Shown piece after piece: positions 1 through 41,854 of a stretch of 42,257 bases of DNA. Each line of letters opens with the position of its first letter. Within the stretch, counting starts at the first letter, position 1. Both the position numbers and the translations under genes were made by a program. This stretch comes from Oceaniovalibus sp. ACAM 378. Lineage in GTDB: Bacteria; Pseudomonadota; Alphaproteobacteria; Rhodobacterales; Rhodobacteraceae. Location: positions 1-42,257 of the forward strand of contig NZ_VSJK01000025.1 in NCBI RefSeq assembly GCF_008085915.1, in the 5' to 3' direction. The notes under the pieces were generated by a model, which did not search any database, was not told where the DNA came from, and saw nothing but the letters and a program-made list of their open reading frames with translations.

Positions 1-148
1 CCAGATCATCTCTGGGTCAAACCACCCTCTCATCGCTACAAGCAGCGACTGCCGGGCAGTGGATCGTTAGCGAGCCACGGCGCTTGAGCGCTTCATTGTA
101 GGCCGGCCAGTTTCTGGTCTTGTAGGTTGGGGGCGAAGGTCTGCTCAT
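1..148 (-). pseudogene. IS5-family transposase N-terminus, interrupted
   Basis: Reading from an ATG at 148-146 gives 29 codons that contain YKTRNWPAYNEALKRRGSLT. This closely matches the N-terminus of the transposase at 16578 (YKTRNWAEYTVSLKQRGSLS). The frame then meets a 37-bp insertion (25-61) and resumes at 24-1 with WFDPEMIW, matching WFDAEMVW of the other copy. The insertion falls exactly between codons 29 and 30 and shifts the frame by one base, so the gene is broken as written. The rest of the gene lies outside the window. Confidence 0.75.
25..61 (+). repeat. 37-bp hairpin insertion element, copy 0
   Basis: The element begins CCCTCTC. It has a stem of TCGCT/AGCGA around a CAAG loop region and ends CTGCCGGGCAGTG. 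It is 37 bp long and is followed directly by GAT, as in the other copies. Here it lies on the strand opposite to the transposase gene it interrupts, and the site (between SLTI and WFDPEM) is not a catalytic codon. This copy shows that the element is not restricted to one site or one orientation. Confidence 0.75.
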
Positions 149-16510: not shown

Positions 16511-16937
16511 GGCTTTGTTGCACAAATCGCCGCGTGGCGGGATTCACTGCCTGAATCCAGCGTGATAGCTGGCTTTTATGAGCAACTGTATCCCTACGAA
16601 GTATAAGACCCGGAACTGGGCAGAGTATACCGTTTCACTGAAGCAACGAGGATCGCTGTCGATCTGGTTTGATGCTGAGATGGTGTGGGAGGCAGTGCGT
16701 TCTGGCCGCCGAGGTCGCCAGCAGGCCTATAGCGATGCGGCGACACAAGCCTGCCTGACCCTCAAAGTGCTGTTCGGGCTACCGTTCCGGCAGACGACTG
16801 GATTTGTAGAAAGTCTTCTGAAGCTTGTCGGATTGGATTGGTCAGTGCCAGACTTTAGCACCTTGTGTCGGCGGCAAAGAACGTTGTCTGTTGCCATCCC
16901 GTACAAGGGGTCAGCAGGGCCGCTGCACCTCTTGATC

Positions 16938-16974
16938 CCCTCTCGTCGCTGCAAGCAGCGACTGCCGGGCAGTG
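16938..16974 (+). repeat. 37-bp hairpin insertion element, copy 1 (before DSTG)
   Basis: Begins CCCTCTC, then a perfect 7-bp stem GTCGCTG/CAGCGAC around the loop CAAG, then TGCCGGGCAGTG, directly followed by GAC of the first catalytic aspartate. The 3' part can itself fold (ACTG/CAGT). It has the same orientation as the transposase. The uninterrupted sequence is inferred from the conserved LLIDSTG/LLVDSTG of this family. Confidence 0.85.
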
Positions 16975-17196
16975 GACAGTACGGGCATCAAGGCTGAAGG
17001 TGAAGGCGAGTGGAACGCGCGCAAACATGGTGGTCCCAAACGCCGCCTTTGGCGCAAGATACATATAGGGATCGACGAGGAAACGCTGGAGATACGGGCA
17101 GTTAAGGTCACCAGCAGCGGGATCGGGGACGCACCCATGTTGCCTGACTTGCTCAATCAGATCCCACCGGATCGAGACCACTGCAGTGTCACTGCC

Positions 17197-17233
17197 CGCT
17201 CTCATGCATGTAAACATGCACTGCCGGACAGTG
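17197..17233 (+). repeat. 37-bp hairpin insertion element, copy 2 (before DGAYD)
   Basis: Begins CGCTCTC, has a stem TGCATG/CATGCA around the loop TAAA, and ends CTGCCGGACAGTG, directly followed by GAT of the second catalytic aspartate. Compared with copy 1, three stem pairs have changed on both strands together, so the fold is kept while the sequence is not. Length and both borders are the same as copy 1. Confidence 0.85.
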
Positions 17234-17638
17234 GATGGTGCTTACGACACCCGAAAATGCCACGATGCGATCGCAGCCCGAAATGCCCATGCTGTCATAC
17301 CGCCGCGTAAGAACGCCAAGCTATGGAAGCCAGATACACCCGGGGCCAGAGCACGAGACGAAGCCGTGCGATCATCAAAGTATCTGGGTCGGGCACTGTG
17401 GCGACAGTTGACTGGATATCACCGCCGAAGCCGCGTCGAAACCAAGATGCACTGCATAAAATTACGCGGGCAGCGCCTCTCAGCCCGTGACTTTGATCGG
17501 CAGGTTGCGGAGATACAAATCCGCGCCGCGATCTTAAACGGCTTCACAGCGCTTGGCATACCACGCACCGTGGCCGTAGACTAAATCCGTCTGGGGGAAG
17601 GGAAAGCCCAGCCTCAAACTGATTTGTGCGACAAAGCC

Positions 17639-18307
17639 TCATCACGGTGCAGATGTCGAACCGCCGTGCGCCGGGGCCTCTGAATCTGCTGGTCCCCTCT
17701 CGGGCATTGCTGCGCAATCCCCTGCCGGGCGAGGGACAGCACGGGGATCAAGTTCCTCGGCGATGGGGAATGGCTTGCGCGCAAGCTTGGCACACACCGC
17801 CGCCGCCAGTATCGCAAGGTGCATCTGGCGATGGATACGGCCACTGGCGACATTCGGGCGGTGGAGTTCACCTCAAGCGATCAGGGTGACAGCCCCGTTC
17901 TGCCTCATCTTCTGGACCAGATCCCACCCGATGAACAGATCGGCACCGTAACCGGTGATGGCGCCTTCGACACCCGCCGTTGCCGCACCGCGATCCATGA
18001 TCGCGGTGGCACCACGATCATTCCCATCCGCAAGAACGGCCGCCGTTGGAAAGAGAATTGTCCCGCTGCCCGAGCCCGCAACGACATCCTCAGGGCGACA
18101 CTCCGATTGGGTAGGGCCATCTGGAAACGCTGGTCCGGCTATCACGTCAGAAGTCGGATAGAGGCCAGGATGCGATGTCTCAAAGCGTTCGGAGAACGGA
18201 TCGCTTCACGAGACCCCGACCGCCAAACCGCAGAAATCCAGATCCGTGTAGTCCTCATGAATCGCTTCAATGCACTAGGCACCGCCGAGATCGAACGCGT
18301 TGCCTGA
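17639..18307 (+). pseudogene. IS5-family transposase fragment, interrupted at DSTG
   Basis: The remaining 5' part reads RRAPGPLNLLV up to 17694, then a 40-bp element intervenes, and the frame resumes at 17735 with DSTGIKFLGDGEWLARKHG. It continues through VTGDGAFDTRRC and SRIEARMRCLKAFGER to the stop at 18307. The second aspartate site (GDGAFD) is uninterrupted here. Roughly the first 95 residues are absent because the neighbouring IS replaces them. Two defects, truncation and insertion, make it a pseudogene. Confidence 0.8.
17695..17734 (+). repeat. 40-bp variant of the hairpin insertion element, copy 3 (before DSTG)
   Basis: Begins CCCTCTC like copies 0, 1 and 4, then folds as GGG-C-ATTGC/GCAAT-CCC around TGC. 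It then has CTGCCGGGC followed by GAGG, and directly abuts GAC of the first catalytic aspartate. The central stem shares no sequence with copies 1 and 2, but the flanking parts and insertion point are the same. The ends CCCTC and GAGGG are complementary. Confidence 0.75.
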
Positions 18308-41058: not shown

Positions 41059-41112
41059 GGCTTTGTTGCACAAATCAGTTTGAGGCTGGGCTTCCCCTTC
41101 CCCCAGACGGAT

Positions 41113-41749
41113 TTAGTCTGCGGCCACGGTGCGTGGTATGCCAAGCGCTGTGAAGCCGTTTAAGATCGCGGCGCGGATTTGTATCTCCGCAACCTGCCGA
41201 TCAAAGTCACGGGCTGCGAGGCGCTGCCCGAGTAATTTTATGCAGTGCATCTTGGTTTCGACGCGGCTTCGGCGGTGATATCCAGTCAACTGTCGCCACA
41301 GTGCCCGACCCAGATACTTTGATGATCGCACGGCTTCGTTTCGTGCTCTGGCCCCGGGTGTATCTGGCTTCCATAGCTTGGCGTTCTGACGCGGCGGTAT
41401 GACAGCATGGGCATTTCGGGCTGCGATCGCATCGTGGGATTTTCGGGTGTCGTAAGCACCATCCACTGCCCGGCAGTGCATGTTTACATGCATGAGAGGG
41501 GGCAGTGACACTGCCGAGGTCTGGATCCGGTGGGATCTGATTGAGCAAGTCAGGCAACATGGGTGCGTCCCCGATCCCTCTGCTGTTGACCTCGACTGCC
41601 CGTATCTCCAGCGTTTCCTCGTCGATCCCTATATGTATCTTGCGCCAAAGGCGGCGTTTGGGACCACCATGTTTGCGCGCGTTGCACTCGCCTTCACCTT
41701 CAGCCTTGATCCCCTCTGGTCGCTGCTTGCAGCGACCAGAGGGGATCAA
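41113..41749 (-). pseudogene. IS5-family transposase fragment, broken at both Asp sites
   Basis: On the minus strand the readable parts are IKAEGEGECNARKHGG onwards to SVTA (about 41704-41501) and, after a 37-bp element, DGAYDTRKSHDAIAARNAH to the stop at 41113 (117 codons including stop). It is nearly identical to the transposase at 16578, so both come from one IS family. The DSTG codons are lost: the site now holds a perfect inverted repeat instead. Without its N-terminus and first catalytic aspartate it cannot encode an active enzyme. Confidence 0.8.
41464..41500 (-). repeat. 37-bp hairpin insertion element, copy 4 (before DGAYD)
   Basis: On the minus strand it begins CCCTCTC, has the stem TGCATG/CATGCA with loop TAAA, and ends CTGCCGGGCAGTG directly before GAT of the second catalytic aspartate. 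It differs from copy 2, at the homologous site of the other element, in only two bases. It therefore was probably already present before the two IS copies separated. Confidence 0.85.
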
Positions 41750-41750
41750 G
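41705..41750. repeat. 21-bp perfect inverted repeat at the first Asp site (rearranged element)
   Basis: A perfect 21-bp inverted repeat with a 4-base loop replaces the element and the DSTG codons. On the minus strand the 5' arm equals the IS flank CTTGATC plus the element start CCCTCT and the stem GGTCGCTG. The 3' arm is its exact complement and joins the IS again at ATCAAGGCTG. This looks like copying of one arm of the hairpin with a switch back at the microhomology ATCAAG. Confidence 0.8.
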
Positions 41751-41854
41751 AGGTGCAGCGGATACGACAGGAAGACGGCGCGGAGAAATCTCGAGCGTGG
41801 CTGGGAAATTCCGACGAAATGCCCACGCCTGCCGGGCGACTGGATGGTCGATCC

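Follow-up and report, generated by a model that had tools for sequence, protein, structure and literature searches.

An interrupted IS5 transposase and its relatives in the window

The window, which is the whole stretch of 42,257 nucleotides that was analysed (contig NZ_VSJK01000025.1 of Oceaniovalibus sp. ACAM 378), carries on its forward strand an IS5-family insertion sequence at 16511-17638 that aligns with ISPko1-type elements of named plasmids and is bounded by terminal inverted repeats (16511-16528 and 17621-17638) that are 94% complementary. A closely similar copy of this insertion sequence at C7 (L001) gives a match to the Pfam family DDE_Tnp_1_5. Alignment with relatives divides the transposase gene into three forward-strand segments, from the start to LLI (16578-16937), from DSTG to VTA (16975-17196) and from DGAYD to the end (17234-17584), separated by two inserts of 37 nt on the same strand. 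Insert 1 (16938-16974) consists of CCCTCTC, a stem formed by GTCGCTG and CAGCGAC, and CTGCCGGGCAGTG; it lies between ATC and GAC (LLI/DSTG, the slash here and below marking the point of insertion), immediately 5' of the codon GAC at 16975-16977 for the first conserved aspartate (D1). Insert 2 (17197-17233) consists of CGCTCTC, a stem formed by ATGCATG and CATGCAC, and CTGCCGGACAGTG, and lies between GCC and GAT (VTA/DGAYD), immediately 5' of the codon GAT at 17234-17236 for the second (D2). Alignment with five relatives from named plasmids shows exact borders at both sites, with no target duplication and no base lost. The D1 site is empty in two of the five (CTGATC/GACAGC in L274 and L275) and holds other inserts in three, and the D2 site is empty in all five. 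Two 37-bp inserts at codon boundaries before GAC and GAT, as described in an earlier sequence-only reading of this DNA, are thus present with the borders claimed for them. The three stem differences between them do replace one Watson-Crick pair by another, as that reading stated, but because the two inserts are different subtypes of one large family these differences represent covariation at the level of the family and not allelic changes.

There are five copies of the element in the window, all of them in IS5 genes. The gapped pattern CTCTC-N10..30-CTGCCGGRC finds five matches where 0.01 would be expected, so that chance is excluded as their source, and there are 31 matches to the same pattern in the whole genome, a few of them stemless. 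The third insert (17695-17734, forward strand) is of a 40-nt subtype, GGGCATTGCTGCGCAATCCC, and occupies the D1 site (LLV/DSTG) of a second, 5'-truncated IS5 transposase, the remainder of which (17735-18307, forward strand) is 56% identical to ISPko1 over query residues 121-307. A copy at the contig start (25-61, forward strand) is antisense in an IS5 transposase, and the same genome has a similar antisense copy elsewhere (L014), at the position of site 87 in the frame of ISPko1. The remaining copy (41464-41500, reverse strand) occupies D2 in a partial IS5 (41059-41761) that is 95% identical to the main insertion sequence. Within this partial IS5, a perfect inverted repeat of 46 nt with 21-nt arms and a 4-nt loop can be read at 41705-41750; it is made up of sequence flanking D1 and of the left half of an element resembling insert 1, after which the gene resumes at ATCAAG. 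An inserted copy seems to have been rearranged here through its hairpin, perhaps by template switching.

The same IS5 sequence with a nearly identical insert recurs at the ends of several contigs of this draft genome (window positions 1-61 and contigs C25, C27, C29 and C57), the insert on C27 differing from the others by one base, and these ends probably represent a multi-copy repeat collapsed in the assembly. The position of several copies at contig ends is what an assembly or sequencing artefact would produce, but the same kind of insert is present in complete plasmid records of named strains (NZ_CP072993.1, NC_023136.1 and NZ_CP083557.1) and in a one-contig genome, and the stems covary, so that the chance of an artefact is negligible. 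A plasmid of Leisingera methylohalidivorans DSM 14336 has four copies. The exclusion of artefacts that the sequence-only reading had called for is thereby largely provided. In six plasmid stretches that were inspected no gene was annotated over the insertion sequence or the insert, and the feature tables list no pseudogenes; in the family to which the window belongs, transposase genes appear often to be broken by such inserts without this being annotated.

A covarying hairpin family, its carriers and its target

The family has the architecture 5'-CCCTCTC, a covarying stem-loop and CTGCCGGGCARTG-3', mostly within 34-45 nt and most commonly in 41 or 37 nt, with nearly fixed ends and a variable stem. 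When 394 genomes from the window's family were scanned with a loose pattern for it, 121 matched, at least 12 of which rest on one stemless match (leaving, by the matches listed, about 109 at most), while a reversed control pattern matched three genomes, once each. A stricter pattern matched four of 385 genomes of the class, all four from the window's family, and none of 380 genomes of other families. At least 119 loci were found in a collection of named sequences, and among the matches listed 107 carry names that we take to be those of Rhodobacterales. The other listed loci belong to Vreelandella (2), Labrenzia, Robiginitomaculum (2), one member each of the Hyphomicrobiales and Rhodospirillales, one unspecified alphaproteobacterial MAG, Microcella and Synechococcaceae (both stemless), Proteobacteria, and a contig labelled Enemella that is possibly G007 of the window's family. 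Thus, judged by named contigs, the carriers belong mainly to one alphaproteobacterial family, the Rhodobacteraceae in a wide sense, with some stray hosts. The Vreelandella neptunia contig, which is labelled as gammaproteobacterial, has its two elements (L147 and L182) in insertion sequence genes, which suggests either transfer or a mixed assembly. In G405 five near-identical copies of the element (L098-L102) are found in a GC-rich dispersed repeat whose matches are 84-90% identical, and no transposase was identified in that repeat.

After removal of second registers and stemless matches, the working set comprised 301 elements, 237 of them distinct, from 133 assemblies, some of which may represent one and the same organism. 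No long relative with the ends of the element was seen in a search that covered gaps of up to 40 nt: all but six of the 368 3' ends were preceded within 40 nt by a regular 5' end, and 27 5' ends lacked a regular 3' end, most of the 25 that were examined being followed by a variant of it.

The stem is supported by formal covariation. In the 41-mers (38 of 63 distinct sequences), a stem of nine pairs with one unpaired base, such as also occurs in the stems of some REP-type hairpins, had 95.0% of its cells paired compared with 71.1% after shuffling; there were 63 double-changed cells compared with 16.5, a value reached in none of 500 shuffles, double changes affected eight of the nine pairs, and slid partners gave at most 47.7% pairing. 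In the 37-mers (21 of 30) 86.4% of cells were paired compared with 59.6% and 36 were double-changed compared with 13.7, while two of five measures were not above the shuffles: four pairs showed double changes, and there were eight further pair types. The folding of single strands alone was unexceptional (z of -0.8 to -1.7 for six strands). On the top strand of 173 distinct elements of four lengths the inner pairs comprised 1222 Watson-Crick, 31 A.C, 16 G.T and 36 other combinations, and the basal pair was Watson-Crick in 129, A.C in 41 and G.T in one. The rarity of G.T relative to A.C is weak for the inner pairs (16 against 31, p 0.04), and the comparison treats related elements as independent; since an A.C on the top strand is a G.T wobble on the bottom strand, we infer that it is the bottom strand that folds. 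Selection on a folded RNA, as proposed in the sequence-only reading, is not shown by these data: the mispairs fit the bottom strand better, and template switching or hairpin-templated DNA correction could itself match the two arms and so produce covariation. The covariation is a record of the history of a hairpin and alone is no demonstration of selection on RNA.

An important consideration is what determines where the element lands. The flanks of 227 sites give the target consensus C/GAYGR. From 141 of 154 site clusters, with ISPko1-like sites omitted, a weight matrix was derived and scored on five insert-free IS5 genes, and among 1812 positions it ranked D2 at 1-18, D1 at 10-25 and site 621 (antisense) at 1-66; other observed sites ranked lower (site 87 at 98-162, 453 at 7-118, 827 at 22-302 and 754 at 6-658) and some top-ranked positions carry no insert. 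The matrix predicts that 60-67% of insertions will be in phase 0, and 53 of 77 were observed, 34 of 111 sites having been dropped since their two sides disagreed; relative to the gene, 58 elements were sense and 53 antisense, and both phase and orientation come from tblastn matches with natural open frames, which is a noisy method. No special targeting of codon boundaries or catalytic positions need be invoked, because D1, D2 and the phase are all predicted by a motif derived without the IS5 sites. The search for codons of catalytic aspartates that the sequence-only reading had envisaged was therefore rejected, the more so as other insertion sites are not catalytic positions and the orientation is about even; what survives of it is that D1 is overused and that subtypes tend to be bound to sites. 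The alignment of IS5 genes with and without inserts that the same reading had recommended gave the clean borders described above. The possibility that the target lies in a hairpin loop was only slightly favoured (mean score 8.08, compared with 7.56 for random positions and 7.33 for C/GA controls) and was not used.

The genes that receive the element are predominantly transposases. Twenty-four of 30 sampled flanking fragments match transposase families (one of the 24, to HTH_21, below the Pfam cut-off), including IS5/IS4, rve types, IS21, IS66 and Y2; six matched nothing significant and none of the 30 matched a significant non-transposase family. In wider scans of 100 and 96 fragments the largest families were the same, and there were single matches to arginase, creatinase, amidase and a phage portal protein, the last of which is probably L268, where an IS5 fragment is fused to other DNA. 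On the viral contigs L264 and L268 the insert-bearing IS5-like gene is fused some 40-50 nt downstream to differing DNA, the two being near-identical until the break. The sequence-only reading held that these inserts form a structured family linked to insertion sequence genes, and would have abandoned a targeted element had they lain at random places without structure or such a link; the covarying stems, the repeated exact sites and the transposase hosts uphold it.

Could the element be a small palindromic repeat of the ordinary kind, able to insert wherever there is a C/GAYGR, insertion sequence genes being simply the places where insertion is tolerated? The target motif does predict D1, D2 and the codon-phase bias, and intragenic small palindromic repeats are known from other bacteria (PMC3733652). 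However, the window contains 261 perfect CGAYGR sites and its five copies are all in IS5 genes, the sampled fragments include no significant non-transposase match, D1 is repeatedly filled, and subtypes are shared at the same site above chance in diverged hosts (see below); this explanation is accordingly unlikely, although it is the most credible of the alternatives. Both the preference for transposase genes and the recurrence at particular sites exceed what the motif accounts for.

Recurrence at identical sites and the state of the host genes

Among the aligned IS5 genes, 12 of 26 have an insert at D1 (nine assemblies, five subtypes), although four of the 26 were picked since their length hinted at an insert. 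Among 164 pairs of elements at the same site in different assemblies and in diverged hosts (identity below 0.78 over 48 nt), 25 (15.2%) differed by two or fewer positions in the variable part and so shared a subtype, compared with 3.6% in 500 permutations, of which the largest value was 9.1%; the 25 pairs come from eight of 16 site groups. Three IS5 copies of G163, whose flanks are 83-88% identical, have one identical 41-mer at D1, and these flanks differ six bases from the insert, so that there is no long co-conversion tract. In the same three copies (L311-L313) a run of A followed by G, AAAAAGGGGGG, lies some 50-60 nt 3' of the insert and the IS5 frame shifts there, one copy having three extra G in the run; presumably this resembles the insertion sequences that use slippage. 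G115 has two IS3-type copies with flanks 71-79% identical and a common 41-mer, and L158 and L212 have this 41-mer at the same site.

It may be asked whether such sharing is simply inherited, that is, whether old insertions with a function in the insertion sequence have been kept by vertical inheritance and purifying selection on the whole element. There are identical elements at the same site in differing hosts, and an insert at site 621 is common to five of seven genes of one IS5 clade in three assemblies. Against this, subtype in the VMI/DAT group is independent of host similarity (L200 is nearer to L312, which has another subtype, than to L082, which has the same one), insert-free genes are nested among insert-bearing ones, and sharing barely drops with host divergence, being 18.5% (12/65), 13.1% (13/99), 18.2% (10/55) and 26.9% (7/26) from the most to the least diverged hosts, the closest bin comprising identities of 0.86 or more. 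Fully identical elements at the same site numbered 0, 5, 2 and 3 in these bins, with 0/65 in the most diverged. The site-bound subtypes could in part reflect inheritance, since the closest hosts share most (rank correlation -0.14, p 0.03) and the most diverged share no fully identical element, but inheritance is improbable as the explanation of the whole. A guide model, in which the stem resembles its target, was rejected, no stem-target similarity accounting for the binding of subtypes to sites. We read the recurrence instead as repeated, site-preferring re-insertion, which on the pattern of sequences described might be termed homing-like.

The consequences for the interrupted genes depend on whether the insert can be removed or skipped. 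A rescued insert, either a mini-intron lost from the RNA or a translational bypass in which the ribosome skips the insert, would allow transposase still to be made. Such rescue is suggested by G018, where an IS3 occurs six times in full length, each time with the same set of four inserts, and which has no insert-free full copy and no other relative of OrfB above 33% identity (the nearest being 31-33%), by L014 and L008, which contain five and four elements respectively and yet have only one small frameshift each and no stop codon, and by the host genes that share site 621, for which dN/dS is 0.10-0.24 at a dS of 0.29-1.73 (seven genes from four assemblies), although this low ratio may be older than the insertion. 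However, sense and antisense elements are about equally common, even within a single insertion sequence of G018 (two and two in the copy read), and the triplets at the end, as read at three sites, are GTG, GTG and AGG. Copies within one genome diverge as if unselected, with dN/dS of 1.22 between the main insertion sequence and its copy at C7 and with differences outside the elements mostly replacements among the four of the six G018 copies compared. Copy number was at first taken, from G018, as proof of a working transposase, but this was dropped when four insert-bearing IS5 copies in G084 proved to have a common in-frame TGA; an insert-free full copy of that IS5 is absent from G084, and therefore an insertion sequence bearing an insert can multiply without its own transposase. 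In L351, one of these four copies, the D1 aspartate itself is replaced by alanine. If an insertion sequence with an insert still multiplies, either the transposase acts in trans or the inserts are tolerated.

By a tally from the alignment, other lesions were present in 12 of 26 insert-bearing and 13 of 28 insert-free IS5 genes, a count that left out two insert-bearing genes with lesions (L195 and L248) and that includes L296 and L298, whose insertions may be of another kind. The lesions among the insert-bearing genes speak against rescue, and the similar rates in the two groups would also fit harmless inserts. In plasmids of Loktanella and Leisingera (L271 and L272) inserts of 39 nt preserve the frame, and the annotation shows each gene as one open frame for an IS5 transposase of about 323 aa, which has 13 additional residues immediately before D1. 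Rescue of the interrupted gene is possible, but as an account of the inserts it is doubtful, and somewhat more so than that of an ordinary repeat.

Proposed mobility and its meaning

The reading that we prefer, to which we would give a probability of a little over one half, is, from the comparison of sequences, that the inserts represent a mobile, non-coding hairpin of 34-45 nt, with most of its carriers among the Rhodobacteraceae, that is moved in trans and would repeatedly re-invade sites in insertion sequences. A mobilising enzyme was looked for and none was found. The Y1 transposase domain (Y1_Tnp, PF01797) is present in five of 23 element-bearing and two of 37 element-free genomes, and in neither G000, to which the window belongs, nor G018. 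RVT_1 is present in 12 of 25 element-bearing genomes and gave no match in 13, among them the one-contig genomes G084 and G152, and neither domain occurs in nine of the 23 carriers tested for both, including G152. A resident Y1 transposase or reverse transcriptase was thus rejected as a general mover, both being missing from many carriers. It is possible that carriers have lost a reverse transcriptase or drew on a foreign one, and the range of truncated copies that reverse transcription would be expected to leave was not seen. The host insertion sequence families are common outside the window's family, and the near-restriction of the element to that family suggests a family-particular factor.

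The element would work as its bottom strand (5'-CAYTGCCCGGCAG-stem-YGAGAGGG-3'), either as RNA or as single-stranded DNA, and would be placed immediately 3' of 5'-YCRTC. Going by the consensus, YCRTC could pair with the terminal GAGGG of the element at four of five positions. An enzyme acting in trans, not in general a resident Y1/RAYT or reverse transcriptase, would then join element to target. The insert in most cases breaks the reading frame; the insert-bearing insertion sequence would persist or multiply by means of transposase made elsewhere, and the element would then re-invade identical sites in other copies. The preference for transposase genes is left unexplained even by this best explanation.

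A preference for transposases might be expected if the bacterium itself placed hairpins in transposase genes to silence them, and both the unrelated insertion sequence types among most of the sampled matches and the near-restriction to one family, which points to a host-encoded factor, would fit such a defence. It is very improbable nonetheless, because insert-bearing insertion sequences keep multiplying. Beyond the mobile hairpin itself, it is conceivable, though less likely than not, that the copies represent a class of minimal homing element not described before, a non-coding hairpin of 34-45 nt that would re-invade conserved transposase sites of many unrelated insertion sequence families, with subtypes tied to sites and with family-particular machinery. 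If the homing-like reading is true, mobility without coding capacity would extend down to about 37 bases with a target preference tied to a hairpin, the element would be a family-wide natural brake, or a passenger, of insertion sequences, and the way would be open to test for a DNA- or RNA-joining enzyme of the Rhodobacteraceae.

Comparison with known systems

No description of these elements was found in the open-access literature searched, and so far the view of the sequence-only reading that no described class fits is sustained, although this does not establish their absence from print. Several kinds of short mobile or palindromic sequence nevertheless invite comparison. The small dispersed repeats (SDR) of Nostoc and the GC clusters of yeast mitochondria are tiny non-coding hairpins that are apparently mobile, and we know of no preference of either for transposase genes. 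MITEs are likewise non-autonomous, short and palindromic, but the ends of the present element are not mutual inverted repeats and there is no target-site duplication. Homing introns and inteins occupy conserved codons and form site-bound lineages in diverged hosts, as is the case here, but an element of 34-45 nt has neither ribozyme nor protein and is too short for a group I or group II intron, and at gathering thresholds there were no Rfam matches in the window.

REP sequences and REPINs, which are associated with RAYT (Y1) transposases, are also non-coding hairpins of 20-40 bp in many copies, some of them intragenic (PMC3733652). They have a foot of GTAG or CGTC, whereas here the ends are CCCTCTC and CTGCCGGGCARTG. 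A RAYT gene is present in the genome in REP systems, but no Y1 match was found in 18 of 23 element-bearing genomes, and REP sequences are mostly extragenic while the sampled flanks are predominantly transposases. The Rickettsia palindromic elements (RPE) are alphaproteobacterial palindromic inserts within protein-coding genes; REP and RPE inserts are described in PMC3733652 as encoding amino acids. An in-frame, translated insert is not the rule for the present elements, with 35 of 227 lengths divisible by three and L271 and L272 as the exceptions. The byps of Magnusiomyces mitochondria are short, frame-breaking inserts in coding genes; according to PMC5009743, they are found in most mitochondrial protein genes, are skipped in translation and in several cases are without perfect matches. 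The hosts here, by contrast, are mostly transposases, and the inserts are found in both orientations. Of the features that define REP/RAYT, RPE, introns and MITEs, the element lacks those that were tested; in size and fold it resembles REP, RPE and SDR, and in its behaviour it resembles homing introns.
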